Source: a virus. Taken from it: 46,561 bases of DNA. The notes under the pieces were generated by a model. It was not told where the DNA came from. It worked only from the letters and a program-made list of their open reading frames with translations, and made no database searches. This document shows positions 6,530-37,750 of this stretch, one piece after another (position 1 is the stretch's first letter; each line of letters starts with the position of its first letter). Made by a program: the position numbers and the translations under genes. The stretch lies in IMG/VR virus record IMGVR_UViG_3300049432_000094, positions 1-46,561 of that record, one strand, 5' to 3'.

Positions 6530-6549
6530 GACGTCACCTCCACAGTGGT

Positions 6550-8013
6550 CTAGTAGCCGGCGCCGATCTGGTAGCCGGCGAGCGACGGGTCGAGGTCGTC
6601 CTGGTCGACGATGTGGCCGAGCTCCGGCGGTACGAACGCCTTCGCGAGCATCAGCGCGTCGGCCCGGTCCGGGGACGGCAGGCCCCGCTTGCGGATGTCG
6701 TCCTTCGACTCGATCTGGATCTGCCCGCGGGACGTGTACTTGTACCGCAGTGCGCCGAGGTGGGCGGCGAGCTCGTCGTCATCGGGGTCGATGTCGATGT
6801 CGCCCTGCTCGAACAGCTCCCGCAGGCCCCAGTACCACTCGGCTCGCGCGTTCAGGAAGTGCTTGGAGTCCATCGGGGCAGCACCGGCCTGCATGTCCAT
6901 CACCGCGAAGCCCATCTCGACCAACTGGTCGACAACACCACCGCCGACACCGACACCGTCGACGCGGATCTCGAAGTCGCCCGGCAGCTCGCGCACGTGG
7001 GCGACGACGTGACCAGTCGTCTCGGTTGTCGGGAGCTTCGCGTAGGACCCGATGGTTCGACAGACAGGGCCGGCCGTGCGGATGATGATGGTCCGGTCGG
7101 TGCCATAGCGGGCGACGTCGACGCCGAGGCGCTGATCGTCAGCATCCTCAACCAGGGTCCGGTTCTGCGCCGCCTCGATGAGCGACGGTGCGATCAGGGT
7201 GTCCTCGCCGATGTCGGGGAAGTCGCCGAGGACTTTCGACGTGTAGCGGGGGGACTCCTCACCCCAGCGGATCTTCTTGTCCTCGACCCAGTCCGGTGAC
7301 AGCAGCAGCGGCCGCAGGTCGTCAGGCACCTGCTCGTCGGTGAAGTTGGGGGTGTCGAACGCCGAGATCGAGTGCACCTGCCAGCCGGAGCCGGGTTTGC
7401 AGATGCGGCCGAACTCGGTGTTCGGGTCGTCCGGGTTCCCGATCGCCAGGACTGTGGCCGACGCATTGGTAGTGATCGCCTCGACCGCGGTCCACAGCTG
7501 CTCGGGCACGCCGCACGCCTCGTCGATGATGACCAGGACGTAGCGGCGGTGGATGCCTTGGAAGCCGTGCTCGTCGGTGTCGGCAGGCTTGCGGCCGAAG
7601 CCGACCAGGGTGCCGTCGTCGAGCTTCCACTCATCGGACTGGAACACCTTGCCCGGCAGCGGATCACCACGGTGCTCGGCGAGCCTGGCGGCCTTGCGGA
7701 TCTCCTCCCACAAGATCGCGTGGACCTGCTTGTACGTGGGCGCCGTGGAGACGACGAACGCTTCGCCGGGTGCGTGGACGTCGATCCACCAGGCTGCGAG
7801 GCGGGCGGCGAGGAAGCTCTTGCCGGAGTCGTGGCACGACTTGACGGCGGTACGCGGGTGCTCGACGACAGCCTGGGAGATCTCGCGCTGCTTCGACCAC
7901 AGGTGCTCGCCGAGTCGATGCTTCACCCAGCCGGCCGGATCGGCCCGGTACGGCGACACGGGCGTCGGCTCGAAGACTCGGGCAGCTGCGTCCCAGGACT
8001 CGGTGAGTGTCAT
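6550..8013 (-). CDS. terL: Terminase large subunit (packaging ATPase and nuclease)
   Basis: This 487-residue motor protein packages DNA through the portal. The N-terminal ATPase has Walker A SCHDSGKS (59-66) and Walker B VLVIIDEA (159-166, D164/E165), followed by a coupling segment AIGNPDDP. The C-terminal RNase-H-fold nuclease has VDVARYGTD (D299), EIRVDGVGVG (D352) and SPDRADALML (D449, D452), the acidic set expected for headful or cos nucleases. The gene is followed by the portal. A small protein lies 23 bp upstream. No adjacent classical small terminase is present; the best candidate lies at 10810-11472. Confidence 0.95.
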   Translation of the reverse strand: MTLTESWDAAARVFEPTPVSPYRADPAGWVKHRLGEHLWSKQREISQAVVEHPRTAVKSCHDSGKSFLAARLAAWWIDVHAPGEAFVVSTAPTYKQVHAILWEEIRKAARLAEHRGDPLPGKVFQSDEWKLDDGTLVGFGRKPADTDEHGFQGIHRRYVLVIIDEACGVPEQLWTAVEAITTNASATVLAIGNPDDPNTEFGRICKPGSGWQVHSISAFDTPNFTDEQVPDDLRPLLLSPDWVEDKKIRWGEESPRYTSKVLGDFPDIGEDTLIAPSLIEAAQNRTLVEDADDQRLGVDVARYGTDRTIIIRTAGPVCRTIGSYAKLPTTETTGHVVAHVRELPGDFEIRVDGVGVGGGVVDQLVEMGFAVMDMQAGAAPMDSKHFLNARAEWYWGLRELFEQGDIDIDPDDDELAAHLGALRYKYTSRGQIQIESKDDIRKRGLPSPDRADALMLAKAFVPPELGHIVDQDDLDPSLAGYQIGAGY

Positions 8014-8036
8014 GGCTCGAGGTCACCTGGTCCCTC

Positions 8037-8192
8037 TCACGTGAAGCAGCCGGCCGCGATAGCGACTGTCTTGACGCAGTGGTCGGTGAGCCGCACCAGG
8101 GGGAGGTGAAAGCCGCCGGACGTCATGCATGCGTTGCACCAGAAGCCGGTGCGCAGGACGCCTGGGTCGAGTTGGACGACGATCGTGGCCAT
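8037..8192 (-). CDS. Small Cys-containing protein upstream of terminase
   Basis: This 51-residue ORF starts MATIVVQLDPGV, with a good ribosome site (GGAGGTC) 7 bases upstream. It contains WCNACM (C-x2-C) followed by DHC and GC, enough Cys/His for one zinc site. It ends 23 bp before the terminase and is the first coding gene after the tRNA/terminator segment, so it may head the late operon. Function is unknown. Confidence 0.62.
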   Translation of the reverse strand: MATIVVQLDPGVLRTGFWCNACMTSGGFHLPLVRLTDHCVKTVAIAAGCFT

Positions 8193-8340
8193 GAACGACC
8201 TCCGCCCCGGGTTGTGACTTGTCTCACCTCGGCCCGCGTGGATCGGTGACCGTACCTCGTCAGAGGCGTCGATCCATGGAAGAGGGTGCGTGTCTCCCTT
8301 GTCGACGGGGGTGGTGATGCGAGGATGTTCCTTAGCCGCA

Positions 8341-8416
8341 GCCCCTGTAGCTCAGCTGGACAGAGCCCATCCCTTGCGAAGATGGTGAGTCGGGAGTTCG
8401 AATCTCCCCAGGGGCG
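8341..8416 (+). tRNA. tRNA-like gene with an aberrant anticodon/variable region
   Basis: A cloverleaf folds with acceptor GCCCCTG/CAGGGGC, D-arm GCTC/GAGC, and T-arm GGGAG-TTCGAAT-CTCCC; the discriminator is G and CCA is not encoded. Between D- and T-arms there are 25 nt instead of the usual 23. Either the anticodon stem is CCATC/GATGG with a 9-nt loop, or it is CATCC/AGATG with one mismatch, a 7-nt loop CTTGCGA (anticodon TGC) and a 7-nt variable loop. A TGC anticodon would read Ala codons, but the Ala G3-U70 identity pair is absent, so the isotype is uncertain. It is opposite to the neighbouring genes. Confidence 0.75.
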
Positions 8417-8429
8417 CCGGCTGGGGAAG

Positions 8430-8466
8430 GGCCCGCCCTGGGCAATCGCTCGGGGCGGGCCTTCTC
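8430..8466 (+). terminator. GC-rich hairpin after the tRNA
   Basis: A 9-bp perfect stem GGCCCGCCC (8430-8438) / GGGCGGGCC (8453-8461) is followed by TTCTC, 14 bases after the tRNA end. It is consistent with an intrinsic terminator for the tRNA transcript, and being symmetric it could also act on minus-strand transcription. Confidence 0.7.
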
Positions 8467-8479
8467 GTGCATGAGCAGA

Positions 8480-8508
8480 CCCCCGCCAAGTAGGAAGTCT
8501 GGCGGGGG
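8480..8508. terminator. Second strong hairpin, probably bidirectional
   Basis: A perfect 9-bp stem CCCCCGCCA (8480-8488) / TGGCGGGGG (8500-8508) encloses an 11-nt loop. With the preceding hairpin it makes a double transcription barrier between the tRNA and the downstream tRNA-like repeat. Confidence 0.6.
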
Positions 8509-8526
8509 CCTGCGGGTGATCGAACT

Positions 8527-8558
8527 AGCCCAGCTGGACTGTCGACCCATCCCTTGCG
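8527..8558 (+). repeat. Partial duplicate of the tRNA 5' half
   Basis: AGCCCAGCTGGAC here matches AGCTCAGCTGGAC of the tRNA D-arm (8349-8361) at 12 of 13 bases. CCCATCCCTTGCG (8546-8558) matches the tRNA anticodon arm (8366-8378) at 13 of 13, with two extra bases between the blocks. No acceptor or T-arm follows, so it is a tRNA fragment, a decayed duplicate or a recombination scar. Confidence 0.7.
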
Positions 8559-8668
8559 TACCGCCAGACTAGGCAGCGTTAGGACTGGTTGGCAAACGAC
8601 ACGCGCGAACTACAGCGGTGTGTTTCTTGACACGGAGCGCGGCGCTCGCTAGCCACCCAGGAATGACC

Positions 8669-8697
8669 GAAGCCCTCACCGAATCGGTGGGGGCTTC
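8669..8697 (-). terminator. Hairpin downstream of the minus-strand gene ending at 8754
   Basis: GAAGCCCTCACCGA (8669-8682) pairs with TCGGTGGGGGCTTC (8684-8697), with one G-U wobble and a tight loop. It lies about 57 bp past the stop of the last gene of the early/middle chain and is well placed to end that transcript. Confidence 0.6.
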
Positions 8698-8753
8698 TGG
8701 CTGCGGAGACACTTCTCCCGCCGAGGCCAGTCTCAGTCACTCGCGTCCCAGTG

Positions 8754-9581
8754 TCAACACGCCCGATGCTGCGGCGTGTCGGCATCGACCTCGTCCGCCT
8801 GTTCATCCTCGTGATTCTCGGCCCGAATGTGATCCGCCAGCAGCCCGATCGAGTTCTCGTCCCACGTCTCGTGGCACTCGATGCACAGACCGGTGTGGAG
8901 ATCGAGCCGGATCCGCAGACCGCCACGCACCGCGCACAGCGGGCACGTGTTGTCCGGCGCCCATGCGGGAGAGTCCCATCCGGTGACGATCCTGGCGGCG
9001 GCCCACCAGGATCGGATCGAACGGTAGGCGTCACGGTCGGTGCCGGCGATGCTGCCGAGATGCCGAACGGCGGCAATCGTGTCGGGATACCTATCGTGAG
9101 AGTCGGTTACACCACGTGCGGTGAGAAGGGCGTGGACCTCGTTCTCGATGCGGACAGCGGTATCGATGGCGTCGATCCGAGCTGATGGCTTCGAGGCGAG
9201 GACCCGGCGGCCGGACTCCACCGACCCGGACTGCTCGGCCGCAGACCACAACTGCTCGAGCAGCGGCGGGCTGACCGTGTGGTGGCGTTCGGTCACCCAG
9301 GTGAGCGTCCCGTCCGCGTTGTGGATGCAGGTCTGGTACGTCTGGCTCGCCCTGGTGGTATCGCAGAGGGCGGTCACGAAGTCGGTCAGCTCCCAGTATC
9401 TGGTATCACTTTCGGGGAGTTGGCGTCCGGTGACGGGCCGCCGTGGTGGCCGGCTGACGGGATCCTGCGCGGCGACGGGGTGGGCGATGCGGAACCATCC
9501 GATCTGGCCGCCTCGGCAGTGGGCGCACTGGTCGGTGGGTAGATCGGACCAGGCGCACGTGGTGCCGTCGTCGTTGGTCAT
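8754..9581 (-). CDS. Conserved actinophage protein with two Cys clusters
   Basis: This 275-residue protein has an N-terminal zinc motif (DQCAHCRGG, near residue 20), a middle helical region (ELTDFVTALCDTTRAS, then PPLLEQLWSAAEQS and AVRIENEVHALLTARGV) and a C-terminal four-Cys cluster NTCPLCAVRGG ... LCIECHETW (near 215-240) followed by an acidic tail. The two-ended zinc architecture is often seen in actinophage hypothetical proteins (DUF7341-like, from memory), not linked to a known reaction. The ATG at 9581 is chosen because it overlaps the previous stop (ATGA) and has GGGAGG 7 bases upstream. It ends the early/middle operon. Confidence 0.75.
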   Translation of the reverse strand: MTNDDGTTCAWSDLPTDQCAHCRGGQIGWFRIAHPVAAQDPVSRPPRRPVTGRQLPESDTRYWELTDFVTALCDTTRASQTYQTCIHNADGTLTWVTERHHTVSPPLLEQLWSAAEQSGSVESGRRVLASKPSARIDAIDTAVRIENEVHALLTARGVTDSHDRYPDTIAAVRHLGSIAGTDRDAYRSIRSWWAAARIVTGWDSPAWAPDNTCPLCAVRGGLRIRLDLHTGLCIECHETWDENSIGLLADHIRAENHEDEQADEVDADTPQHRAC

Positions 9582-15961: not shown

Positions 15962-16092
15962 GACACCCCCTCGACGAGCTCAGGGGTCTCGATGCGGCGC
16001 ATGACCGGGTGGTCGGGGTCGTCGTAGAGGCGGTCGATGCACTCGTAGTAGGCGTCCTCGGCGAGGTCGAAGAGTGGCTCCTGGTCGGTCAT
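15958..16092 (-). CDS. Small acidic protein, 44 residues
   Basis: The product starts MTDQEPLFDLAEDAYYECID and ends ETPELVEGVS; it is very acidic. ATGA overlap with the HerA-like stop and GTGA overlap with WhiB support translation. Function unknown. Confidence 0.65.
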   Translation of the reverse strand: MTDQEPLFDLAEDAYYECIDRLYDDPDHPVMRRIETPELVEGVS

Positions 16093-17771
16093 GCAGCTTC
16101 ACCGCCGATCTCGTCGGCGACGGCCATGCCGTCGCGGCCGCCGTTGATCAGCCGGAGGGTGCGGAGCCTGCTGATGGAGTTGCGGAAGCCACCGGAGACG
16201 GCGGAGTAGCCGGTGGCCTCAGCGACCTGCTCGTGGTCGAGCTGGCCCGGGTAGACGTCGAGGAGGACGTCGAAGATGGCGCGTTCGGCCTTGCCGAGCT
16301 GGGCGCGCCAGTGGTCGATGAGGGCTTGCCCGGTGGGCAGTGGTGGGATGTCGCCGGCGGCGGCGACGCCAGCCTCGGTGGCTTCGAGGCGTTCCTTGGT
16401 GCCTTCGATGAGGCCGGCGGTGCGCAGGGCGCTGATGCTGTTGCGGAAGCCGCCGGACTTGCTCGAATAGCCGGTCAGGAGTGCGACCTGGATCTGAGTG
16501 GACGGGCCGTGCCGGATGAGGGTGCCGAGGATGGCCGCCTGTGCCTTCGGCAGCGGGCCGTCGGCCGGTGGGGTGGCCGGGGGTCGGGGAGGCGCTGTGG
16601 GCGTGGTACGGCGCGGCTGGGGTGCCTTCACTGGGGTGCGCGCCGGCGTTGGGGGTGCTTCTGCGGCCGCGTGGAGGGTTGGGCTGATGGCGGTCGAGAT
16701 CTCGTGGACGAGTCCGGTGAGTTCCTTCATCACTGTCGTCACCTTGACCAGCTGCTCGTCGCTGATGACGGGCGCTTCGACACGCTCGACGACGGGCTCG
16801 GGAGTCTCAACGTTCGCGGCCGCGCGCTCGAGCTCACGGATCCGGGCCTTCAACGCCTTGGGGTCGTTGGCCTTGGCCTGTTCGGCGGTCGCGGTGATCT
16901 TCTGTCCGAGGGCATCGATGTCGATGTCGGCCAGCTGCTTCGGCACGATCCGTTGCTCGCCGATCTTCGGGGTCGCGGAGGAGTCGAACGTGGTCCGCGT
17001 TCGGACCCTGACGCGCTCGAGGATCCCGAGCCACCCGGGTGACCAGATCCAGGCGGTGCCGATCGGCAGCGACGGCAGCGACTTCTTCAGCTCGGCGGCT
17101 TCGCCCTCGTCGGCGTGGAGTCGGACCCACTCGTCGATCGCCTGGACGTCGCGAACGCCGTTCATGCGCAGGCAGACGAGGACCTCGGCTTGTGTGAGGA
17201 CGTCCTTGTGGAGGACGGCCGGGCGTTGGGTGATGAGGGTGACGCCGATGCCGCGTGCTCGGCCGCGGCGTACGAGGTCCTCCATGGCGCCGAGGAGGCG
17301 GGCGGCGTCAGCTGCGACGCCGCGTTGGGGTGCGAACGCGTCGGCCTCGTCGACGAAGACGTGCAGCGGGTCGCGGTTGCGGTGGTAGAGGGTCTCGATG
17401 AACTTCGTCATGAAGCGGCGCGACGCACTCTTGGAGAGCAGGGAGAGGTCGATGATGGCGGAGAAGCGTTCGCTGATGATTGCGTCGGCGATGATCTCGC
17501 CGGCGTTCTCGTCGAGGGGCACGTCGGCGTGGTCGCCGCCGAAGATCGCGATCGGCAGGCCGGCCTTCTTGCCGTCGGCGGAGGAGCGTAGACCCCACCA
17601 GACGCCGATGGGGTCGATGACTACGACGGGGTGGCCGGCGCCGATCATCTCTTCGGCCATCACGTTGGCGGTGTAGGTCTTGCCGGAGCCTCGCTTGGCG
17701 AGGATGGCGAAGGTCTCGGTGACGGCCTCGAGCGGGAGCTTGAAGCCGGGCGCGATGTTCAGTCCGCTCAC
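16089..17771 (-). CDS. HerA-like ATPase with duplicated C-terminal winged helix
   Basis: This is a 560-residue protein from the GTG at 17771, chosen for its GTGA overlap with the RusA-like stop; an upstream in-frame ATG would overlap that gene by more. The FtsK/HerA-type ATPase has Walker A AKRGSGKT (25-32) and Walker B HVFVDEADAF (about 138-147), with LITQRPAVLHKDVLTQAEV as sensor/arginine region. A coiled coil and Pro-rich linker follow. Two homologous winged-helix units each contain SGGFRNSIS.LRT.(L/R)LI.G (about 411-460 and 500-549). No NurA partner is present. A DNA translocase role in recombination or replication is likely. Confidence 0.82.
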   Translation of the reverse strand: MSGLNIAPGFKLPLEAVTETFAILAKRGSGKTYTANVMAEEMIGAGHPVVVIDPIGVWWGLRSSADGKKAGLPIAIFGGDHADVPLDENAGEIIADAIISERFSAIIDLSLLSKSASRRFMTKFIETLYHRNRDPLHVFVDEADAFAPQRGVAADAARLLGAMEDLVRRGRARGIGVTLITQRPAVLHKDVLTQAEVLVCLRMNGVRDVQAIDEWVRLHADEGEAAELKKSLPSLPIGTAWIWSPGWLGILERVRVRTRTTFDSSATPKIGEQRIVPKQLADIDIDALGQKITATAEQAKANDPKALKARIRELERAAANVETPEPVVERVEAPVISDEQLVKVTTVMKELTGLVHEISTAISPTLHAAAEAPPTPARTPVKAPQPRRTTPTAPPRPPATPPADGPLPKAQAAILGTLIRHGPSTQIQVALLTGYSSKSGGFRNSISALRTAGLIEGTKERLEATEAGVAAAGDIPPLPTGQALIDHWRAQLGKAERAIFDVLLDVYPGQLDHEQVAEATGYSAVSGGFRNSISRLRTLRLINGGRDGMAVADEIGGEAA

Positions 17772-18241
17772 GGGGTCACCTGCAGGGCCGAGAAGCAGAG
17801 CCACACGCCGGCGGCCGTCTCTGCGTTGACGTATCGCTTGGTCGCGGTGATGCGCGCGACCTGGTTGTCGTCGCCCCAGACGCCAGCGGTGGTGAGCCCG
17901 TCGAAGGTGGAGCGGATGAGCTTGTCGATGTCGGGCTTTGCCTGGATGTAGACCGGTGCGCCGGGCTTGATGATGCCGTCGTTGCGGCCGGTGCCGTAGT
18001 GCTTGAGCGGCCGCGGAAGGAAGAAGGAGGCGACGACGGCCACAGGTCCCGTGTACGGCGTGAAGCCAGGGGTCAGCGCGATGGCTTCCTTCGCGACCTG
18101 GACGACGTCGGCTCGCCAGGGCTTCACCTTCTTCGAAGACTCCACCATGCGGCCGCCTCCGACGTGCCGCTTAGAGCCTTGTGGTGCGGGCAGGCCAGCG
18201 ACCCAAAACTCGAGCTGGGTCGTGGCGAGTGCCGCTGTCAT
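17768..18241 (-). CDS. RusA-like Holliday junction resolvase
   Basis: This 157-residue protein has the RusA-fold pattern: VAGLPAPQGSKRHVGGG near the N-terminus, a central strand region (GPVAVVASFFLPRP) and the acidic signature KPDIDKLIRSTFDGLTTAGVW-GDDNQV, whose Asp residues bind Mg2+. It would cut branched DNA before packaging. Start 18241 is set by ATGA overlap with the small upstream gene. It is grouped with RecT, YqaJ and a DEDDh exonuclease. Confidence 0.9.
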   Translation of the reverse strand: MTAALATTQLEFWVAGLPAPQGSKRHVGGGRMVESSKKVKPWRADVVQVAKEAIALTPGFTPYTGPVAVVASFFLPRPLKHYGTGRNDGIIKPGAPVYIQAKPDIDKLIRSTFDGLTTAGVWGDDNQVARITATKRYVNAETAAGVWLCFSALQVTP

Positions 18242-18426: not shown

Positions 18427-19193
18427 ACGGTTGCTCCTTCGGTGAGACGGGTGTGCAATGGCCAGCCGTCGTCGATCTCGCCGTAGTTGGCCTGCTTCTC
18501 GGCCGTCTGCTTGGCGACCCAGTTCCGGAATGACGTCTGGTCGCGACGACGCCATGCCGCCTGTCGCTGGTACATCTCGGCCGGGCTGAGGGTGCCGAGC
18601 ACGTTGAACTCGTGGCAGAGGGCGCGCGCGAGGCGCGCGGTGCCGATCGCGTCGGCGGTGGCGTCGTGGGTCTCGGTGAAGGTGACGCCGAACTGCGCGC
18701 AGAGGTCGGGCAGCTTGTAGGACCAGCCGCGGCCGGTGGCGGGATCCTTGAACGATCGGTTGTCGACGCGCTGCCCCTTGGCGATGACCATGGGGTCGAT
18801 GACGCTGAACCAGTCAGCCGGTCGGATCCGCGCGTTGAGGTCGGGAAGGTCGTAGCGGCGGCACTCGACGTCGAGCATGGACAGGTCGAACGCGGCGTTC
18901 TGCACGATGAGCGGGTAGGCGGATCGGAGGACGCCGGCGACTGTGGTCGCGATCTCCTCGATGGCCTCGGCAGGCTCGATGCCGTGCTCACGCGCGTGCT
19001 CGGTGGTGATGCCGTGCACGGCGGTGGCCGACTCGGGGATGTCGACGGGGCAGGCGATCAGCCACTGGCGTTGATCGAGGACCATGTCGGCCTCGACCTT
19101 GACCACGCAGGCGGTGACGATGCGGTCCTCGAAGACGTCGACGCCGCTCGTCTCGACGTCGAAGGCGAACCGGATGCCGTCGGGCCAGCTCAT
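18423..19193 (-). CDS. DnaQ-like DEDDh 3'-5' exonuclease
   Basis: The 256-residue protein has all three Exo motifs: FDVETSG (D12, E14), NAAFDLSML (D103) and HDATADAIG (H176, D181), so an active DEDDh site is expected. The C-terminal 60 residues (QTSFRNWVAKQTAEKQANY) are extra. With no phage polymerase it may act in recombination or DNA repair, or proofread in trans. It couples to RecT upstream and a small gene downstream by ATGA. Confidence 0.9.
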   Translation of the reverse strand: MSWPDGIRFAFDVETSGVDVFEDRIVTACVVKVEADMVLDQRQWLIACPVDIPESATAVHGITTEHAREHGIEPAEAIEEIATTVAGVLRSAYPLIVQNAAFDLSMLDVECRRYDLPDLNARIRPADWFSVIDPMVIAKGQRVDNRSFKDPATGRGWSYKLPDLCAQFGVTFTETHDATADAIGTARLARALCHEFNVLGTLSPAEMYQRQAAWRRRDQTSFRNWVAKQTAEKQANYGEIDDGWPLHTRLTEGATV

Positions 19194-20176
19194 GCGGCCT
19201 GCTCGCGGATCCGCTCGAGGTAGGACTGCAGCTGCTCGACGTTGGCATCTGCCAACAGGATGCCCCCGTTAGCCTCAGCGAAGTCAGCGTCGAGCTGCTC
19301 CGGGGTGAGGCCAGTGCTGTCGGCCTCGGCCTGGATGTTGTCGCGCAGGACGTCGGCCTCGGTGAGGACCTCGCCGTCGATCGTGTCGTCGTCGTGGTTG
19401 CCGAAGTGGTGCGTGGTTGTCGCTGCGTCATGGGACGGAGCGAGGTCCACGCGGACGCCCTCGTCGACGACCATGGCGGTCGCCAGGTCTGTCGACTTCG
19501 GCATCCACTTCGCGAGCTTCAGGACGCACGTCTTGTGCGCCATCGACTCGAAGTTGTCGCGCCACGGCCCGACGATCGTGCCGTCGCGCTTCTTAGCCAT
19601 CGCGAACTGATCGCGGTGCTGTTCGACCTCGGCCTTGGTCATGTAGATGTACGCGTGGCCGCCGGTGTTCAGGTGGAGCACCGCGTAGTAGCCCTCAGGC
19701 TCGCCGCGATCGCCGCGCCGTGGCGGGATGTGCACGAGCTTGTCCTCGAGGCCGTAGGCGATCTCGAAGGTGTCGTTCGTGTACACGGTGCGGGCGATGA
19801 GCGAGGCGACTTTCCCTGACCGGTGGGCGAGCTCGACGAGGCCTTGGTAGCCGATGACCAGCTGTGCTTTCTGGCCACGTGAGCGCGAGTCGTAGAACGG
19901 CAGCACCCAGGCATGCCCGAGGACGCCTGGCCGGAGGCCGAGCTGGGAGCACGTCATCAGGGCTCCGAGCACTGACGCCGGGTCGCACTCGGCGAGCTTG
20001 GGGGTGGTCCGCAGGGCGGTGAGTGCGTCACGAACCAGCTGGGAGGCTTCGGCGCCCTTGGGCATGGCCAGCTGGAACTGCGATTCCATCTTGCGGATCT
20101 GACCGGCGAGGGTGTTGGGCTCTTCGGTCTTGGCGACCTCGTTGCCCTGGGCACGGTTGCGCAGCGTGTTCGACAT
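19190..20176 (-). CDS. recT: RecT-family single-strand annealing protein
   Basis: The 328-residue protein starts MSNTLRNRAQGN at 20176, fixed by TGATG overlap with the YqaJ-like stop. Typical RecT features are present: VRDALTALRTTPKLAECDPAS, TCSQLGLRPGVLGHAWVLPF, QLVIGYQGLVELAHRSG and WRDNFESMAHKTCVLKLAKW. The C-terminal 100 residues are acidic and divergent, as usual. It would anneal single strands made by the neighbouring exonuclease. Confidence 0.95.
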   Translation of the reverse strand: MSNTLRNRAQGNEVAKTEEPNTLAGQIRKMESQFQLAMPKGAEASQLVRDALTALRTTPKLAECDPASVLGALMTCSQLGLRPGVLGHAWVLPFYDSRSRGQKAQLVIGYQGLVELAHRSGKVASLIARTVYTNDTFEIAYGLEDKLVHIPPRRGDRGEPEGYYAVLHLNTGGHAYIYMTKAEVEQHRDQFAMAKKRDGTIVGPWRDNFESMAHKTCVLKLAKWMPKSTDLATAMVVDEGVRVDLAPSHDAATTTHHFGNHDDDTIDGEVLTEADVLRDNIQAEADSTGLTPEQLDADFAEANGGILLADANVEQLQSYLERIREQAA

Positions 20177-21183
20177 CAGAGTTCTCTCTTCAGGCTGAAG
20201 CGGGGCGATCCCGCAGTGACGGTGATGAAGCCGCGCCGTTGCAGGGCTTCGTAGATGGCGGGGTCCTCTTCGCGCAGGAGCTTGAGGTTCGCCACATTCA
20301 TGGCGGGGGTGGCTGCCGGCGGCTTGTACGTGTAGATCTCGCGGTCCTCGACGACGGCGGTGTCGCACTCGTCGAGCAGCTGTACGAGGGCGGACTTGGC
20401 CTCTTCCTTGAGGGCCTTGCCGTCCTTCTCGATCCGCAGACCCTCGCGGTACTGGACCACCCATGTGGTGGTCTGCTCGGGCTTGAGGATCTTGGTGCCG
20501 ACCCGGTCCGCGTACATGCGGTTCAGCAGGTTGAGCAGGATGCCGTCGCTGTCGGCGTTCACCGTCGGTGGATGGCCGGCCTCGATGTCGGCCCACAGCT
20601 TCTCGGCTTGCTCGACGAGGTAGTCCTCGAGTGTGGTGTCAGGCTCGTAGGTGAAGTCGACGAGCTGCTGGCCACCGATCAGCACGGCGACGTGCATGTG
20701 CGGTAGCCCGGACGTGTACCGACCCCAGGCGACTTGGGCGAGCACGTCGTCGGGGATCTCCTCGCGGTAGTCGCCGGCCTTGAACGCGGACCGGGTCTTG
20801 ACCTCGAGGCCGCAGACGCCGTCGGTCTCGCAGCCCGCGACCAGCCGGTCCAGGGAGGCGCGCACCCACGGCAGTTCGGTGTGTCGGATGACGCCGACGC
20901 GGCGGACCTGCTTCTTGTGGCGGCGGGCCCATTCCTGTGCGACGGGGTCCTCGAGGATGTTGCCCCATTCGCCGGCCTCGGAGACGTCCTCGTCGACTTG
21001 CTCGCCGCGCTTGTCCAGCCACACGGAGAGGGCGTTGCCGTACTTGGAGTCGCCGAGGATCTTCGGCAGATCAGTGCCCGTGATGCCTTGGCGGCGTGCC
21101 GCGAACCATGGCTTCGTCTGCGGCTCGGCATCTGTGACCAGCACGCCGGTCGGCGAGACCTTCTCGGCGGTCGCGGTGGTCAT
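20176..21183 (-). CDS. YqaJ-type recombination exonuclease
   Basis: The 335-residue protein has the lambda-exonuclease-like fold markers WFAARRQGITGTDLPKILG, GEWGNILEDPVAQEWA (Glu ligands), and GLEVKTR (the E-x-K of the PD-(D/E)xK site), then AQVAWGRYTSGLPHMHVAVL. It would resect 5' ends for RecT. Start 21183 is chosen by ATGA overlap; an in-frame ATG at 21192 is upstream. The C-terminal 100 residues are helical (EKDGKALKEEAKSAL). Confidence 0.92.
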   Translation of the reverse strand: MTTATAEKVSPTGVLVTDAEPQTKPWFAARRQGITGTDLPKILGDSKYGNALSVWLDKRGEQVDEDVSEAGEWGNILEDPVAQEWARRHKKQVRRVGVIRHTELPWVRASLDRLVAGCETDGVCGLEVKTRSAFKAGDYREEIPDDVLAQVAWGRYTSGLPHMHVAVLIGGQQLVDFTYEPDTTLEDYLVEQAEKLWADIEAGHPPTVNADSDGILLNLLNRMYADRVGTKILKPEQTTTWVVQYREGLRIEKDGKALKEEAKSALVQLLDECDTAVVEDREIYTYKPPAATPAMNVANLKLLREEDPAIYEALQRRGFITVTAGSPRFSLKREL

Positions 21184-26351: not shown

Positions 26352-27263
26352 CTAGTCGATGGACAGGCCGAACGCGGTCGCCAGATCAGTGGTCGTCTTC
26401 CACCTGATGCCGAGCGGCGTGACGCCACCGAACCGCGCCAGCGTCCGGTGCAGCGACACGAGCGTCAGGGGCGCGGTGACGACCTTGCGGTCGATCGACG
26501 GGTGGATCAGGACCGTGTGGATGTGGTTGCCCTCCTGGTGGTTGTCCTCGTCCCAGGTGAGCACGATCGCGAGCTCGCCGGACTGATAGTCGGGACCGGC
26601 CATGAGCCGTTCCGTCTCGGCCCTGAACCAGGCGTCGGCGGTGCGCAGCGAGCAGTCGTGGCTGTTCTTGCAGTTGTTGGGCACGATCAGCGTCAGGTTC
26701 GGCAGGGTGCCGGCGGTGATGCGCGGGACGATCTTGTCGTAGCCGACCATGAACTTCTCGCACAGGGCACGCTCGTCCTTGAACGGCACCCAGTACGAGT
26801 GCCGCGGGTGGTAGTAGCCGCGTTGCGTTTGCCGGCAGTTGTCGCTCGACATGGTCTGGGCGAAGACCATGGCGGTGCGTCCTGCGGCGATCGTCTTGCC
26901 CATGATCGACGGGCCCGTCACGTGCTTGATGGTGTTGGAGGTGATGCCCTTGTTCTCCCCGGCCGCGATCCAGACGTAGTTGGGCTGGGACGGGTGCGTC
27001 ATCGCCTTCATCGACTTGGCCAGACCGTACTTCTCGCCGATCGACTTCATCCACGGGGCGCCCTTGATGACCTGGCTGTAGCCCTTGTTCTCGCCGATGA
27101 TGACGGCGATCTTGGACGGCTTCACCGTCGGCACGTCTGTCGGGCCGACGCTGGGTGTCGGCTCGTCGACGTTGGCGAACCGGCTCGGTTCCTCGTCGGC
27201 CGAGCAGGCTGCTAGGCCGGCGGTGAGGGTGAGCGCTGCGAGGAGCGCAGCTGCGCGGCGCAT
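26352..27263 (-). CDS. Secreted lipoprotein phosphoesterase (acid phosphatase / phospholipase C superfamily)
   Basis: The 303-residue protein starts with a signal peptide and lipobox LAAC (Cys20). The mature part has the phosphoesterase-family (PF04185-like) pattern: KIAVIIGENKGYSQVI (E58, N59), MTHPSQPNYVWIAAG (about 88-102), TMSSDNC, LIVPNNCKNSHDC and LTWDEDNHQEGNHIHTVLI (D238, E239, D240, H247, H249), which should supply the metal-bound active site. Its substrate is not evident. A membrane-anchored enzyme at the end of the tail/lysis operon, near attP, could be expressed in lysogens or act on the envelope. Small membrane protein upstream, DUF2188 downstream. Confidence 0.85.
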   Translation of the reverse strand: MRRAAALLAALTLTAGLAACSADEEPSRFANVDEPTPSVGPTDVPTVKPSKIAVIIGENKGYSQVIKGAPWMKSIGEKYGLAKSMKAMTHPSQPNYVWIAAGENKGITSNTIKHVTGPSIMGKTIAAGRTAMVFAQTMSSDNCRQTQRGYYHPRHSYWVPFKDERALCEKFMVGYDKIVPRITAGTLPNLTLIVPNNCKNSHDCSLRTADAWFRAETERLMAGPDYQSGELAIVLTWDEDNHQEGNHIHTVLIHPSIDRKVVTAPLTLVSLHRTLARFGGVTPLGIRWKTTTDLATAFGLSID

Positions 27264-30915: not shown

Positions 30916-31041
30916 TCAGGGCGCCCAGAACAGGTGGTAGGCGCCGAGCATCACGCCTACCGGGACGCCGACCAGGAGGACGCCTGCGAGGACGCTCAGG
31001 CCGACGCCAGCTGCGATGGCCCGGAGCTGCTCGGCCCGCAT
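30916..31041 (-). CDS. Tiny hydrophobic protein, 41 residues
   Basis: MRAEQLRAIAAGVGLSVLAG continues as one membrane helix ending AYHLFWAP. It lies 2 bp after the preceding membrane protein gene. Possibly a pinholin-like or regulatory peptide; only position and hydrophobicity support it. Confidence 0.55.
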   Translation of the reverse strand: MRAEQLRAIAAGVGLSVLAGVLLVGVPVGVMLGAYHLFWAP

Positions 31042-31043
31042 GG

Positions 31044-31388
31044 TTATGCCCTGGTGACCGCCGTCGGCACCGGACTCGTCTGGGTGCGGAGCCACAGGGC
31101 GCCGATTGCGCCTGCGAGCGCGACGATGATGCCGAGCTGGTCCTGCGTGAGGTTCGCGTTGTACTGGATGAAGAGCAGGCCGACGGCTTGGACGAAGGTC
31201 TCGATCGCGGAGAGGAGCTTGTCGCGGGTGGTCCAGACGACGACGACGCCGAACAGGCCGAGGACCACTGCGTAGACCGCGGCGGCGTCGTCGGCGGTCA
31301 GCCAGGAGAAGCCGAAGGTGACGACGAGGGCGAGGACGAGCCGGATGACCGCTTGGTAGGCGGCGGGCTCGCGTCCGAAGATCTTCAT
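31044..31388 (-). CDS. Holin-like membrane protein, 114 residues
   Basis: Starts MKIFGREPAAYQAVIRLVLA with an AGAAGGAG ribosome site. Three hydrophobic segments (about 13-32, 37-60, 85-104) and a short C-terminal tail fit actinophage holins (PxxYxAxxxxxLALxxxFG pattern). It sits with the endolysin and other membrane genes, so release of the endolysin is the likely role. Confidence 0.75.
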   Translation of the reverse strand: MKIFGREPAAYQAVIRLVLALVVTFGFSWLTADDAAAVYAVVLGLFGVVVVWTTRDKLLSAIETFVQAVGLLFIQYNANLTQDQLGIIVALAGAIGALWLRTQTSPVPTAVTRA

Positions 31389-31407
31389 GATGGTGCTCCT
31401 TCTGTTG

Positions 31408-32181
31408 TCAGAACTGCGTGACGGGGCCGGTGATGGACACCGACGCCCAGATGAGGTTGTGGTCCGATGCGTCGCCGGAATCGACGAGGCCGGCGCTGTT
31501 GACGACGCACAGGTCGCCGGCGGCGAGGAGGTCGATCCAGTGGCCGCGCATCGGGTTGTCCTGGTATCGGTCGAAGCTGTCGTAGTCGCCGTTCGTGACG
31601 GTGGCGACGCGGGTGCGGACGTCGACGTGGCCGACCTCGGCGATCGCCGCCCGCAGGCCGGTGTCGTACTCGTGGTCGTTGGCGTCGCCGCCGCCGACAC
31701 TGCGGCGAAGCCGGGACAGGTGCTGGGCGATGACCGCGGCCTGCTCGAGCCGCATCTCCGCAGCCATCGCCGGCGGCCGGGTGGGGCTGTCCGGGGCGAT
31801 CAGGTGCGTGTTCCACGTCCACCACCTGACGCCCGTCGAGCGGTGCCAGAAGTTGTGCTCGATGTAGTCGCGCGAGTGGGGGAGGCGGACGACGTTGGTC
31901 GTGATCTTGCGGTGCTTGTTGCCGTCGACGATGCAGTGGTTGCCGCCATCGCCCATGATGAGGCTCCACCCGGTGTGAGACTGGCGTTCGAGCTCAGCGA
32001 GGATCTGCCGGTGCTCGTCGTCCTCTTCGTGGGCCTCGTTGAGCAGGAAGATGGAGGCCTTGGCGGCGAGCATGGTCTGCACGACCTTGGGCAGCCGCTG
32101 ATGCCAGCTCCCGCCGATCGTCTCGTAGCCGCCCTGGACGTTGAACTCGGCGATGCGGAAGGACGCGGTCGCGGTTGCCAT
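31408..32181 (-). CDS. Endonuclease/exonuclease/phosphatase (EEP) family protein A
   Basis: This 257-residue protein has the whole EEP active site: FNVQGG (N14), LLNEAHE (E49), TWNTHLIAP (H126), GGDAND (D166, N168) and SDHNLIW (D240, H241). This fold includes DNase I, AP endonucleases and lipid phosphatases, so the substrate may be DNA or a phospholipid/phosphosugar. No signal peptide. It overlaps (TGATG) the next upstream gene, a second EEP protein, within the lysis cassette. Fits EEP length with no large insert. Confidence 0.85.
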   Translation of the reverse strand: MATATASFRIAEFNVQGGYETIGGSWHQRLPKVVQTMLAAKASIFLLNEAHEEDDEHRQILAELERQSHTGWSLIMGDGGNHCIVDGNKHRKITTNVVRLPHSRDYIEHNFWHRSTGVRWWTWNTHLIAPDSPTRPPAMAAEMRLEQAAVIAQHLSRLRRSVGGGDANDHEYDTGLRAAIAEVGHVDVRTRVATVTNGDYDSFDRYQDNPMRGHWIDLLAAGDLCVVNSAGLVDSGDASDHNLIWASVSITGPVTQF

Positions 32182-32939
32182 CAGACGGGGACCGTGACGT
32201 CGGGGATGACGAGCATCGGGTGATCGGTGGCCGAGCCCAGCTGCACCATCCGTGGCTTGCCGGTCTGAATGTCCTTGGTCTTCTGTGCGCGGATGATGTT
32301 TCCGGCGTCGACGTTGACCATGCCGTGCTTCTTGGCCGCGTCACCCGGCGCGTCTGGCTTGTCGGACGGGGCGTGGTTCTGGTCGCCGAGCACCATCCAC
32401 GACTGGCGCGGCAGCTTCACGGTATCGAGCAGGCAGTCCATCTGCTCGTAGCGGATGTCGTCGTACCGCTTGATGTTGTTGGGGCCCTTCGGCATGAACT
32501 CGAAGTGCACCGAAGCGAGGCCGGCCCGCTTGCCCTCCAGGTGGCCGCGGCCGGCCAACGACCACCGGTTGCGGTCCCAGCCCGGGTAGGTGTCCTCCAG
32601 TTTGAGCTGGAACCACTGCCAGACGTCCGGGTTCCAGATGAAGCCCATGCCGACGCCGGCGTGGCCTTTGCCCTTGGTGATGCAAGAGGCTTCCGGGTGC
32701 AGTTTGATCGCGCCAGTGTTGGTGTCGACCGCGAGCTTGTCGCCCCAACCCATCGCCTTCGCGAAGACCTGGGCGTTCTGGTAGGTGACGAGCTCGTTGA
32801 CCTGGATGACATCGGCGCCAACCTCGCGGCACGCCGCAGCTACTCGCTTGATTCGAGCGTCCTCGTTCGTGCTCAGACCTGCAGCGGCTGCCCAGCTGTC
32901 GAGGGCGCAGACGTTGGTGGAGACAAGCGTGGCGCTCAT
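32181..32939 (-). CDS. Endonuclease/exonuclease/phosphatase (EEP) family protein B
   Basis: This 252-residue protein also has the EEP set: STNVCA (N9), VIQVNEL (E49), LASVHFEF (H145), VLGDQNH (D186, N188) and SATDHPML (D239, H240). It is clearly a paralogue in fold but not close in sequence to protein A. Start 32939 by ATGA overlap with the preceding gene. Both nucleases are placed next to the endolysin. They may degrade host DNA at lysis or work on a cell-wall phosphoester; neither is proven. Confidence 0.85.
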   Translation of the reverse strand: MSATLVSTNVCALDSWAAAAGLSTNEDARIKRVAAACREVGADVIQVNELVTYQNAQVFAKAMGWGDKLAVDTNTGAIKLHPEASCITKGKGHAGVGMGFIWNPDVWQWFQLKLEDTYPGWDRNRWSLAGRGHLEGKRAGLASVHFEFMPKGPNNIKRYDDIRYEQMDCLLDTVKLPRQSWMVLGDQNHAPSDKPDAPGDAAKKHGMVNVDAGNIIRAQKTKDIQTGKPRMVQLGSATDHPMLVIPDVTVPV

Positions 32940-33268
32940 GCTGGCGTCCACTCGTTGTGCTCGATGTAGCCGCGCCAGCTCTCCTCGGGCCTGCGCTGGA
33001 CGAGGATCGAGTTGCTCGACCCGTCTCCCGGGCGGACAGAGATCGAGCCATCCTCGTGTTCGCGGACGGTGTGCGCCCGCAGGTTCGCGAGGAGCCGGCC
33101 CGGCGCGTGGACCATCCACGCGGTTCGAGTCAGGTTGCTCGGCTGGTCATCGACGACGAGCGGCTCACCGGTCTCGCGGTCGAGGACCTTCCAGGCGTCG
33201 CCCTCTTGGAGCTCGTCGTAGGGCAGCGGGAACTCACCTTCGGCCGTGTCGGACAGGCGGCGGCCCAT
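32936..33268 (-). CDS. Hypothetical lysis-region protein, 110 residues
   Basis: Starts MGRRLSDTAEGEFPLPYDEL. A beta-rich protein with AWKVLDRETGEPLVVDD, TRTAWMVHAPG and a C-terminal SISVRPGDGSSNSILV ... SWRGYIEHNEWTP. The last part is reminiscent of DUF6527-like phage proteins (low confidence). TGATG overlap with the endolysin and ATGA with EEP protein B. Confidence 0.7.
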   Translation of the reverse strand: MGRRLSDTAEGEFPLPYDELQEGDAWKVLDRETGEPLVVDDQPSNLTRTAWMVHAPGRLLANLRAHTVREHEDGSISVRPGDGSSNSILVQRRPEESWRGYIEHNEWTPA

Positions 33269-33948
33269 CACGCGACACGCTCGAAGTTGTCGGCGTAGAA
33301 GCAGCGCCCGGTCGCGGTGACGAACCACAGCTTGCCGGTCCGAGCGTCACGCGTGAACGCGACCGCCGTGTGCTCCTCACCGACCGCGACCTGCGCCCCG
33401 TACTGCGGGGCAGCGGTGGTCTGCCGCGTGTACGAGTGGCAGGCAACCTTGCAGCGCATCTTGCCCGGCTTCCCGACCGCCTTCTCCGGGAACACGAACA
33501 GGGGCCGCGCGCCGTACATCTTGGGCCCGTTGTCACGCTGGCTGCCGACCGAACCGAGTCCGCTGCCGGGCGGGTTCCGCCAGTAGTCGACGACCTGCTG
33601 TGCCGCGAGCCAATGGACGCCTTCGTCGCCGGCGACAACGAGATGAATGTGGGGGATCCAGCGAGACGACCTCGGCCGATACCAGGCGGCGCAGCCGAGG
33701 AGGCGGAAGACGAGGACCCGATTGCGCCAGTTGAACCATGACGTGTCGGCCACTGACCGCTTGGTGTGGGTGCCGGCGGACTGTGGGCCGCCGGACCATG
33801 AGCCCTGGTGGACGGTGATGCCGGACCGTTCGCCGCCGAAGTGGGGGGTGGCGAGCATCTTGACCGCTGCGATGAAGATGTAGCGGAGCGCCCAGTTGAC
33901 GGCGTTGCCGTCGTAGGAGGTGCGCTCGCCCCAGGTGTGCGCGGCCAT
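33268..33948 (-). CDS. Endolysin, M15-like peptidase
   Basis: The 226-residue protein is related to actinophage M15-type D,D-peptidase endolysins: VHQGSWSGGPQSAGTHTKRS-VAD (zinc H62-x6-D69 in GTG-start numbering), CAAWYRPRSSRWIPHIHLVV (H101-x-H103) and HWLAAQQVVDYWRNPPG. The third zinc site would be the HxH. A C-terminal 70-residue beta domain (YTRQTTAAPQYGAQVA, then GKLWFVTATGRCFYADNF) is likely the cell-wall binding part. Overlaps the upstream stop; GTG at 33951 is an alternative start. Confidence 0.8.
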   Translation of the reverse strand: MAAHTWGERTSYDGNAVNWALRYIFIAAVKMLATPHFGGERSGITVHQGSWSGGPQSAGTHTKRSVADTSWFNWRNRVLVFRLLGCAAWYRPRSSRWIPHIHLVVAGDEGVHWLAAQQVVDYWRNPPGSGLGSVGSQRDNGPKMYGARPLFVFPEKAVGKPGKMRCKVACHSYTRQTTAAPQYGAQVAVGEEHTAVAFTRDARTGKLWFVTATGRCFYADNFERVA

Positions 33949-34148
33949 CACTCCTCCTCGATGCCGTGCTCAGCGAGCACGTCGGCATAGGAGGGAGGGC
34001 GGGTGCCGTCGTCTTCGTCGGCGAGTCGGACGGCGCGACGCTTCTCGCGGATCTCATCGGCGTAGGCGTCGGGATCCTTCGCCCACTTCGCGGAGCTGAC
34101 TTCAACGGGCAGGTCGTCGACGACGACCACCTCTCGTGGACTGGGCAT
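33948..34148 (-). CDS. Hypothetical acidic protein, 66 residues
   Basis: Starts MPSPREVVVVDDLPVEVSSA and has SSAKWAKDPDAYADEIREKR and a C-terminal acidic end. It is preceded by GGAGGCAGCA (good ribosome site) and overlaps the endolysin. Function unknown. Confidence 0.65.
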   Translation of the reverse strand: MPSPREVVVVDDLPVEVSSAKWAKDPDAYADEIREKRRAVRLADEDDGTRPPSYADVLAEHGIEEE

Positions 34149-34590: not shown

Positions 34591-34652
34591 TTCCGTGGTG
34601 AGAATGGACGGGTCGGGGATATCGGGACGTTGCCAGGCTGCTCGGCGGTCAT
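34587..34652 (-). CDS. Short leading ORF, possible N-terminus separated by a frameshift
   Basis: This 21-residue ORF starts MTAEQPGNVPISPTRPF, with a strong ribosome site (GGAGGAGGTCGACCC) and ATGA overlap with the upstream stop. Its own stop overlaps the ATG at 34590. A -1 shift after residue 9 would join it to the protein-like PDIPDPSILTTE frame of the next gene. Confidence 0.5.
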   Translation of the reverse strand: MTAEQPGNVPISPTRPFSPRK

Positions 34653-35200
34653 GGGTCGACCTCCTCCGTCGTGCAAGAGCTGTTCTCGTGGGTCTGCGAC
34701 GTGCCGTCGGTGTAGTGCGTGACCCACTTGCCGTCGTCGGTGCAGGACATCGACTCGAGGCCGCGGCCGTCCTCGCCGTCCTTGCCGTCCTTCGGTGGCG
34801 GCGGTGTGCATTGGCCTCGCGCGTCGCAGTAGACCGCGACGGCTTGCGCGAGCTGCGCGATCGTGGGCGCTGGTGCGTCCCGACCGGGCCGGCCTCGCTT
34901 GCCGTTCTTGCCGGGGTCGCCCGGGACTGGGACGAAGCGGACGCCCGGGACCGGGTCGGGCTGGTCGACGACGGGCTCTCCGCCGAGCGCTTCGACCTGC
35001 CGCTCGAGGGCCTCCATGTCGGCGCGGTCCTCGGCGCGTTCCTTGCGGACATCGTCGACCTTCTCCTGCGCGGCGCGTCGGTCCTCGGCGCGGCCAGCAT
35101 CGTACTCGCGGTCGATCCACCAAGCGGCGCCGAGGACGATGATGACGACGATGAGGGCAGCGATCGCTCCGTACAGACGGAAGGTGCGAAGGTCCTTCAT
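34649..35200 (-). CDS. Membrane-anchored protein with coiled coil and collagen-like stretch
   Basis: This 183-residue protein starts MKDLRTFRLYGAIAALIVVI, an N-terminal membrane anchor (about 10-30). Then come a charged coiled coil (AQEKVDDVRKERAEDRADM), a short Gly-x-y run (GDPGKNGKRGRPGRDAP) and a two-Cys C-terminal domain (MSCTDDGKW, NSSCTTEE). Start set by ATGA. Its context is the lysis cassette; a spanin-like or envelope role is possible, unproven. Confidence 0.7.
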   Translation of the reverse strand: MKDLRTFRLYGAIAALIVVIIVLGAAWWIDREYDAGRAEDRRAAQEKVDDVRKERAEDRADMEALERQVEALGGEPVVDQPDPVPGVRFVPVPGDPGKNGKRGRPGRDAPAPTIAQLAQAVAVYCDARGQCTPPPPKDGKDGEDGRGLESMSCTDDGKWVTHYTDGTSQTHENSSCTTEEVDP

Positions 35201-35505
35201 CGCGAGCGGCGGTTGGCCCAGCGGATCGCCGCGACGACGACGAACTTGTACGTCATGCCGATGAAGACGCCGGTGAAGACGGCGTCGCGGACCTGCTTGC
35301 GGTAGGGGAAGTCGTCGCCGAAGACGATGAAGGCTGCGATCCAACAGATCAGGACCGCGATGCTCGTCCACGCGACGGCGAGCGCCCGGCCGACGTTGCC
35401 TCTCCACCATGGCCCGCTGGTGACGTAGAGGAAGGCGCCGAGGGTGGCTGGCAGGACCGTGGCGAGGATCATGATGTCAGCCCATGATTGGACGTTGGGA
35501 ATCAC
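35197..35505 (-). CDS. Holin-like membrane protein, 102 residues
   Basis: GTG start (GTGA overlap). Starts VIPNVQSWADIMILATVLPA and has three transmembrane stretches (about 10-28, 43-61, 80-94), with SGPWWRGNVGRAL between the first two, a pattern seen in actinophage holins. A basic tail ends RWANRRSR. With the 31044 gene there are two holin candidates. Confidence 0.75.
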   Translation of the reverse strand: MIPNVQSWADIMILATVLPATLGAFLYVTSGPWWRGNVGRALAVAWTSIAVLICWIAAFIVFGDDFPYRKQVRDAVFTGVFIGMTYKFVVVAAIRWANRRSR

Positions 35506-36112: not shown

Positions 36113-37750
36113 TCATGCGGCGACCGCTTGTACCAGGGCAGCGATCGCTCGCTGCTCGTCGAGGGTGTACCAGTCGAGCTCCAGACTCGACGACTTCTCG
36201 TCGACCGAGTAGGCGTTCGAGACGACCCGGTAGGAAGTGGCGCCGTCGTAGCCGACCCCGATGACGGAGCAGACGTAGCCGGGGAGAACTTGGTAGGGCT
36301 TCACCCAGCGGCCGGTGAAGCGGTCGAAGACGAAGCCCGAGACGGTCACCTTCGCGGCGGCTGCGGCGAGCTGCGACTGCTCGATGGTGTCGTTGCCGAG
36401 CGCGTCGGCGACTTCGCTCCAGCTGGTGTCGTCGAGCTTGCCGCTGTGTCGGATCGTCCTGGAGACGATGTGGTCGAGGTTGCTCACGTCGTCGCCGAAC
36501 GAGAGGACCCGGTACGCGCCGGTCGCTGCTTCGGCGGTCACGTAGGCGGCGTCGAGCTCGTCGAGGGTCTCGCCGGTCTGGTCGAAGCCTTCGTCGGCGA
36601 CGATGTCGTAGCGGACGTCGGTGTCCCGTTCGCGCCACTCGGCCCGCCACAAGCCGTTGTACTGCTTGTCCCAGACGGCCCATGTGAAGGCGGGGTTGTA
36701 CTCCATGATCTGCTTGAGCTCGCCGAGCGGGTGGATGCCGTCGGGCCAGACGAGGTCGCGGTGCTGGAAGGTCGCGGTCGTCGCGATCCTGGCGTTGGCG
36801 AGGTCGAGGCGGGGGCAGAAGCGGGCCCAGGAGTCGATGATCGCCTCGTGTGGGAGGACGTAGTCGAAGTTGTAGGAGGGGCCAGTGGTGATCGGGTTGC
36901 GGTTCTTGTCGAGGCGTAGGGCGGTGACGCGGAGGTTGGAGACGTGCATCCAGTCGTCGTCGCCGCCGACGGTGACTGAGGGGCTGTTCCGCAGGTAGCG
37001 GATCGTGAGCCGAAGCGGCGGGTCATCCGAGAAGGGCCCGATGCCGCCGCTCGGCCAGTTGGTCGTGATCTCGCGGTGCCGCACGAGGGGCGAGACGGCG
37101 AAGCCGTGGTCGGTGATCTGGGTGTCCTCGAGGCCGCCGGTGGTGCTGAGGTAGGACTGGATCCGGTTCTCGTTGGTGCCGTTGCCGCAGTCGTAGGTGA
37201 ACTCGTAGGCGGCGATCTCGATCCGGTCGCTGCCGCCGATCTTGGCGCACTCCTCGAGGACGGCATGGGTGAGTCGGCCGACGTAGCCGGAGTTGAGGGC
37301 GCCGGCCTCGATGGTGAACGTCCAGCCGGGCACATTGTCGTCGTCGGGTTGGTTGCCTTGTGCCCACTGGAGCCGGCGGTTGGTGGTGAAGCGTTTCGTC
37401 CAGCCGCCTTCCTCGAGCCGGGTGTCGATCTGGCAGAAGGGGACCTCGCGCTCGGCAAGGTGGGCGGGTCCTTCGCCGATGACGTCGCACTTCCAGACCT
37501 CGCCTCGAGAGCTGAGGCCTCGGCCTGGTCGCTGCATGCGGCCGCCGCCGACCTGCTCTTCGGTCTCGGTGTCGAAGATCGCGATCTCGGCGTGCCGCTC
37601 GAAGTCTTCGGCGTCGATCGCCTGATCGAGATCGAACGATGCGGAGCCGAAGCCGCCGCCATCGACCGACGTGAACGACAGATTGGTCACGTGCTCCGTC
37701 AGCATGCGTTCGCCGCGGGTCTCGGTCAGGCGGACCTCAAAGTCGGTCAT
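36113..37750 (-). CDS. Minor tail protein (phage tail hub/baseplate)
   Basis: This 545-residue protein starts at MTDFEVRLTETRGERMLTEH (37750), by ATGA overlap; a long upstream frame is a shadow of the next tail gene. The N-terminal 100 residues resemble siphovirus tail hub proteins, and the middle and C-terminal parts (FTWAVWDKQYNGLWRAEW, GYVCSVIGVGYDGATSYRVV) show mixed beta strands. It follows the distal-tail-like protein and would close the tail tip. The catalytic role, if any, is not visible. Confidence 0.75.
   Translation of the reverse strand: MTDFEVRLTETRGERMLTEHVTNLSFTSVDGGGFGSASFDLDQAIDAEDFERHAEIAIFDTETEEQVGGGRMQRPGRGLSSRGEVWKCDVIGEGPAHLAEREVPFCQIDTRLEEGGWTKRFTTNRRLQWAQGNQPDDDNVPGWTFTIEAGALNSGYVGRLTHAVLEECAKIGGSDRIEIAAYEFTYDCGNGTNENRIQSYLSTTGGLEDTQITDHGFAVSPLVRHREITTNWPSGGIGPFSDDPPLRLTIRYLRNSPSVTVGGDDDWMHVSNLRVTALRLDKNRNPITTGPSYNFDYVLPHEAIIDSWARFCPRLDLANARIATTATFQHRDLVWPDGIHPLGELKQIMEYNPAFTWAVWDKQYNGLWRAEWRERDTDVRYDIVADEGFDQTGETLDELDAAYVTAEAATGAYRVLSFGDDVSNLDHIVSRTIRHSGKLDDTSWSEVADALGNDTIEQSQLAAAAAKVTVSGFVFDRFTGRWVKPYQVLPGYVCSVIGVGYDGATSYRVVSNAYSVDEKSSSLELDWYTLDEQRAIAALVQAVAA

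Follow-up and report, generated by a model that had tools for sequence, protein, structure and literature searches.

Two predicted EEP-superfamily proteins encoded between a candidate lysin and a holin in an actinobacterial siphovirus

The lysis cassette and its phage

The window, by which we mean the whole stretch of DNA analysed, is the entire 46,561-base virus record IMGVR_UViG_3300049432_000094. It encodes a phage of siphovirus type, with genes for terminase, portal, protease and tape measure proteins, as well as an integrase. The portal is similar to those of Arthrobacter, Glutamicibacter and Brevibacterium phages and of Microcystis phage MinS1, and the host is a soil-type actinobacterium. 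The last part of the late region, ahead of the integrase, has a minus-strand gene (26352-27263) for a protein of the Phosphoesterase family PF04185 (E-value 1.7e-12; 47.6 bits, above the cut-off), which includes phospholipase C and acid phosphatases. The protein has a lipoprotein-type signal (LAAC) and is likely the product of a lysogenic conversion gene, or moron. It is the third phosphoesterase of this phage, beside the two described below.

The lysis cassette also lies on the minus strand. In order, it comprises an M15-like lysin candidate (33268..33951), a 110-amino-acid protein for which no family was matched (32936..33268), a divergent predicted EEP-superfamily phosphoesterase of 252 amino acids (defined as “EEP1”; 32181..32939), a second, dissimilar predicted EEP-superfamily protein of 257 amino acids (“EEP2”; 31408..32181) and a holin (31044..31391; phrog_9752, E-value 5.9e-20). 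The 110-aa gene overlaps both of its neighbours, the lysin candidate at its stop codon and EEP1 by ATGA. The TGA stop codon of EEP1 and the ATG of EEP2 have one base in common (TGATG), which bears out an earlier note on this DNA that had described the two as overlapping ORFs. The holin ATG, at 31388, is close behind EEP2 and is preceded by its own Shine-Dalgarno sequence (agaaggag). EEP1 and EEP2 are located between lysin and holin within one overlapping operon.

The lysin candidate has an M15-type peptidase motif (H-x6-D ... H-I-H) and no Pfam or convincing PHROG match. It shares 33% identity over 102 aa (E-value 2e-6) with the lysin of a second contig, IMGVR_UViG_3300043594_000015 (the “related contig” below). 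This motif and weak homology make it a candidate lysin. The earlier note had placed the EEP pair between holin and endolysin; the holin is well supported by its family match, the lysin has just its motif and weak homology in its favour, and EEP1 adjoins it only via the intervening 110-aa gene. Upstream of the lysin candidate is a collagen-like protein (34649..35347, minus strand; phrog_1806 collagen-like minor tail, 8.3e-7). After the holin, a small ORF on the same strand (30916..31095) encodes a hydrophobic sequence and is possibly a further membrane protein of the cassette.

Family searches against Pfam and PHROG revealed no recognised wall- or membrane-binding domain in EEP1 or EEP2, and neither protein was seen to have a signal peptide or hydrophobic N-terminus. 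We also considered EEP2 as a recent import of foreign composition. Its GC3 is 0.95, as compared with 0.89-0.92 in its neighbours, and this difference is no clear sign of import.

Assignment to the EEP superfamily

The claim that both proteins keep all the residues expected of EEP enzymes (N, E, H, D-x-N, D-H) holds for all five catalytic positions, which are N9, E49, H145, D186-x-N188 and D239-H240 in EEP1 and N14, E49, H126, D166-x-N168 and D240-H241 in EEP2. The corresponding spaced motif pattern was matched by none of 100,000 shuffles of EEP1 and by two of 100,000 shuffles of EEP2. Among the ORFs of the window and the loci compared, it was matched only by EEP1, EEP2 and E. coli YbhP, a known EEP protein. 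The pattern was composed post hoc, with EEP1 and EEP2 already in view, and thus the independent test is provided by an EEP profile.

In library searches, EEP1 matched PF03372 with an E-value of 0.0011 and 19.2 bits, below the cut-off of 24.5, and its ortholog in the related contig scored 19.5 bits, also below this cut-off. When only one genome is searched, the EEP1/ortholog match to PF03372 has an E-value of 1.9e-5. EEP2 had no convincing match in Pfam, PHROG or NCBIfam and no PF03372 match, and for this reason we built an independent EEP profile. Given that the PF03372 cut-off was missed, we file both proteins as divergent superfamily members rather than as PF03372 proper.

The profile HMM was constructed from 12 proteins, namely YbhP and XthA of E. 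coli, EEPs encoded on plasmids of several bacterial classes and two faecal phage EEPs. In a search of 937 ORFs and 600 shuffles, EEP2 (E-value 0.001), EEP1 (0.016) and the EEP1 ortholog (0.038) ranked first to third, and the best unrelated sequence had an E-value of 1.7. The alignment of EEP2 to the profile extends from residue 7 to 250, i.e., over the full length, and N14, E49, H126, GD166-x-N168, the near-terminal “ID” and SDH align with the matching profile positions. The alignment of EEP1 is limited to the E49 and GD-x-N regions. We then joined the MinS1 EEP to the 12-protein alignment for comparison by hhalign. EEP2 scored 51.4 (probability 92.9%, P = 3.7e-7), as compared with 19.6 for the best of 30 shuffles, and EEP1 scored 32.6, with a best shuffle of 20.0. 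EEP2 outscores EEP1 against ordinary YbhP-like EEPs.

On this evidence, which supports the superfamily membership proposed in the earlier note, there is a strong case from sequence that EEP2 belongs to the EEP superfamily and a moderate to strong case that EEP1 does. The motif set occurs in the same order and with the same spacing as in the PF03372 superfamily (Exo_endo_phos; DNase I, ExoIII, sphingomyelinase and YbhP type), with a full-length profile match for EEP2 and a partial, sub-cut-off match for EEP1. Both proteins are nonetheless very divergent from it, and no named subfamily was reached. The motif matches could have arisen by chance, so that one or both proteins are not EEPs. The lack of a convincing Pfam, PHROG or NCBIfam match for EEP2 would fit this, as would the unusable AlphaFold2 models of EEP1 and EEP2, which have pLDDT values of 32.7 and 32.3 and were built from a two-row alignment and a single sequence, respectively. 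A sequence search of solved structures returned chance matches only. However, the independent 12-sequence profile and hhalign, both with shuffled controls, and the sub-cut-off PF03372 match that the EEP1 ortholog likewise has, make such a coincidence highly improbable.

EEP1 and EEP2 have little in common beyond these motifs, as had been claimed. BLASTP returned no match of note between them, and a Smith-Waterman comparison gave z = -0.2, a likeness no greater than that of shuffled sequence. A recent tandem duplication, which the earlier note had also argued against, is ruled out by this absence of mutual similarity. The two genes must have been acquired separately or have diverged in the very distant past, and their products may have distinct substrates, as the earlier note proposed.

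EEP genes at the lysin in other phages

In the related contig, a lysin, an EEP that is 73% identical to EEP1 and a phrog_9752 holin (8.9e-13) occur in the order found in the window. The lysin, which has a weak siphovirus endolysin/peptidoglycan-binding C-terminal domain, is preceded by a collagen-like ORF (5996-6604) and is overlapped by the EEP gene (8001-8762) by ATGA. About 13 nt separate the EEP and the holin, leaving no room for EEP2, which is therefore absent. No protein is better conserved between the two phages than EEP1, at 73% identity as compared with 45-53% for tail proteins and 33%, over part of the length, for the lysins. The values of dN (0.23) and dS (0.59) between EEP1 and its ortholog indicate that EEP1 is under purifying selection. 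In the ortholog, the final motif is ATDK rather than ATDH, so that the catalytic His is replaced by Lys, and the other motif residues are kept. The codon change, from CAC to AAG, involves two bases, which makes a single sequencing error unlikely. Given this substitution, the conserved function may be something other than catalysis.

Microcystis phage MinS1 (MZ923504) is among the isolates nearest to the window phage, with a portal that is 46% and a tape measure protein that is 43% identical. In MinS1, genes for a collagen-like protein, an amidase (Amidase_2, 1.1e-12; phrog endolysin, 8.7e-39), an EEP and a 130-aa membrane protein occur in this order. The EEP (ORF37, UIU47051.1) matches PF03372 with 27.8 bits, above the cut-off of 24.5, and its N-terminal segment is hydrophobic (mean hydropathy 2.27). 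As in the window, the EEP directly follows the endolysin and precedes a membrane-protein gene, and a collagen-like gene is upstream. In contrast to the window, MinS1 has one EEP only, which in pairwise comparison shows no recognisable resemblance to EEP1 or EEP2 and differs from both in its hydrophobic N-terminus. The authors of the MinS1 paper named the amidase as the sole gene for lysis and suggested that ORF37 is a cell signalling protein, with no lysis role (PMC8876498). Although MinS1 was reported from a cyanobacterium, its GC content of 72% and its many best matches to Nocardioides place its true host in doubt.

In total, three phages (the window phage, the related contig and MinS1) have an EEP gene close to the lysin gene and ahead of one for a holin or membrane protein, and the EEP comes in three sequence types that are mutually unrecognisable. 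The slot has been kept while the types have no pairwise similarity, which points to a shared role. Related holins also occur 3′ of lysin-like genes in other contigs, and an EEP is absent from all six of the other phage contigs that carry the same holin family. The EEP is thus an accessory component.

The EEP1-EEP2 pair was found nowhere else in the collections searched. Searches by tblastn returned no match for EEP1 or EEP2 in phages, even at an E-value of 10, and none for EEP1 in plasmids, and these absences are weak evidence, as tblastn missed even the MinS1 EEP, a sign of the great distance between these sequences. With EEP1, EEP2, the lysin and a tail protein as queries, the related contig was the sole hit in scans of IMG/VR and GTDB genomes, a method that depends on short identical peptides and detects close relatives only. 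The searched literature describes no lysin-EEP-EEP-holin arrangement. The statement in the earlier note that no described lysis system has such a pair therefore stands for the pair within these collections, and the search that it proposed, for the pair in other genomes, instead found the slot occupied by one EEP in the related contig and in the published MinS1 genome, so that an EEP in this position is not unique. The EEP superfamily is already known, and the precedent for a single EEP is present in the deposited MinS1 record, where its position was not remarked on.

Possible roles at lysis

Lysis cassettes are usually described as consisting of holins, peptidoglycan hydrolases, spanins and LysB. 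Gene position and recurrence suggest that the EEP in this slot probably assists cell lysis in a role that has been overlooked. Our preferred reading, which is tentative, is that EEP1 and EEP2 are accessory lysis phosphodiesterases that act outside the cytoplasm, most likely as nucleases on released nucleic acid. In the course of events that we infer, from enzymatic activity and late expression through release to substrate and benefit, two separately acquired EEP phosphodiesterases would be made late, from the overlapping operon of lysin, small protein, EEP1, EEP2 and holin. With no signal peptide, they would stay in the cytoplasm, like the endolysin, until the holin opens the membrane; position, overlap and the lack of a signal peptide all fit release by the holin together with the lysin. 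They would then act outside the membrane or in the lysate, most likely on nucleic acid. By digesting the spilled host chromosome and RNA, they would thin the lysate and free the virions. Since DNA is the substrate of secreted EEP enzymes of the DNase I type, a role in cleaving spilled nucleic acid requires the fewest assumptions. Secreted nucleases of the DNase I/NucH type differ from EEP1 and EEP2 in having a signal peptide, in place of which the holin would offer another way out of the cell. In streptococcal prophages, DNase genes adjoin lysis genes, a linkage comparable to that in the window, but these DNases have a beta-beta-alpha-metal fold and signal peptides, serve lysogenic conversion and are no relatives of the EEPs.

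The strongest argument against a nuclease is that a non-specific DNase in the cytoplasm before lysis would endanger unpackaged phage DNA, a danger that an envelope substrate would avoid. Moreover, the EEP fold serves many substrates and the sequence favours none of them, DNA included; the Lys in the EEP1 ortholog may mean that catalysis is not conserved; and six phages that share the holin family lack an EEP, while the MinS1 EEP was not given a lysis role by those who described it. The main rival, which we consider rather doubtful, is that after holin opening the EEPs cut phosphodiesters of the envelope, either in wall polymers (teichoic-type polymers, linkage units) or in phospholipids, and so help the peptidase lysin in a role comparable to that of mycobacteriophage LysB. 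An enzyme kept in the cytoplasm and freed by the holin makes most sense with an outside substrate, and in all three phages the slot adjoins the lysin. The N-terminus of the MinS1 EEP is hydrophobic, as in an exported or membrane-tethered protein, which points outward. EEP enzymes that cut phospholipid headgroups exist, namely sphingomyelinases, but to our knowledge no EEP enzyme cuts wall phosphodiesters. In addition, EEP1 and EEP2 have no recognised wall- or membrane-binding domain, and phages with the same holin family and no EEP presumably lyse their hosts. LysB resembles the EEPs as an extra, non-peptidoglycan enzyme in the lysis cassette of actinophages (PMC5707550), but it is a mycolyl-arabinogalactan esterase of unrelated fold, and the comparison is one of function only. 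In a broader form, the EEP between lysin and holin could represent a recurrent, unrecognised accessory lysis class in phages with high-GC Gram-positive hosts, dissimilar in sequence, that would act as the functional counterpart of LysB by cleaving a phosphodiester of the envelope, whether in a wall polymer or a lipid, with the pair in the window directed at different targets; this seems quite unlikely to us.

The EEPs may also be accessory cargo (morons) in the late operon, in a lysis region that merely tolerates insertion, and could benefit the lysogen or infected cell through nucleotide recycling, RNA turnover or counter-defence against nucleotide signals. The window phage carries an integrase and, further down the same strand, the likely moron for a phosphoesterase lipoprotein; EEP2 is missing from the related contig, with its gap of about 13 nt between EEP and holin; and the EEP types are interchangeable. 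However, cargo would not be expected to overlap the lysis genes so tightly, and the same slot in three phages exceeds what random insertion would give, which makes this explanation unlikely. It is very unlikely that EEP1, at least, has lost catalysis and serves the lysis machinery as a binding or regulatory protein on an EEP scaffold. Such a role would fit the exchange of the catalytic His for Lys in a relative that is otherwise conserved, at 73% identity, but the five catalytic motifs are intact in EEP1 of the window and in EEP2.

If the slot is truly kept across the three phages, it would define a new enzyme class for lysis or for lysate management, the latter meaning the freeing of virions from host DNA, and would be a source of new nucleases or wall enzymes. 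According to a 2022 review, active degradation of extracellular DNA by phages was unreported and DNases released at the end of infection were a hypothesis only (PMC9145820). The EEP locus makes this hypothesis testable.

Elsewhere in the window, two genes on the minus strand match terminase large subunit families (16089-17804, phrog_2666, 2.9e-22; 6550-8013, phrog_2, 3.7e-31), and one of them sits in the replication region. The gene for a RecT-like annealing protein (19190-20596, minus strand) is 73.5% identical at the DNA level to Gordonia phage Jace, which had no other match in the 25 kb searched. A tRNA-Trp predicted at 36148-36235 on the plus strand, antisense within a minor tail protein gene, is probably a false positive, and a tRNA-Ala is predicted at 8341-8418.
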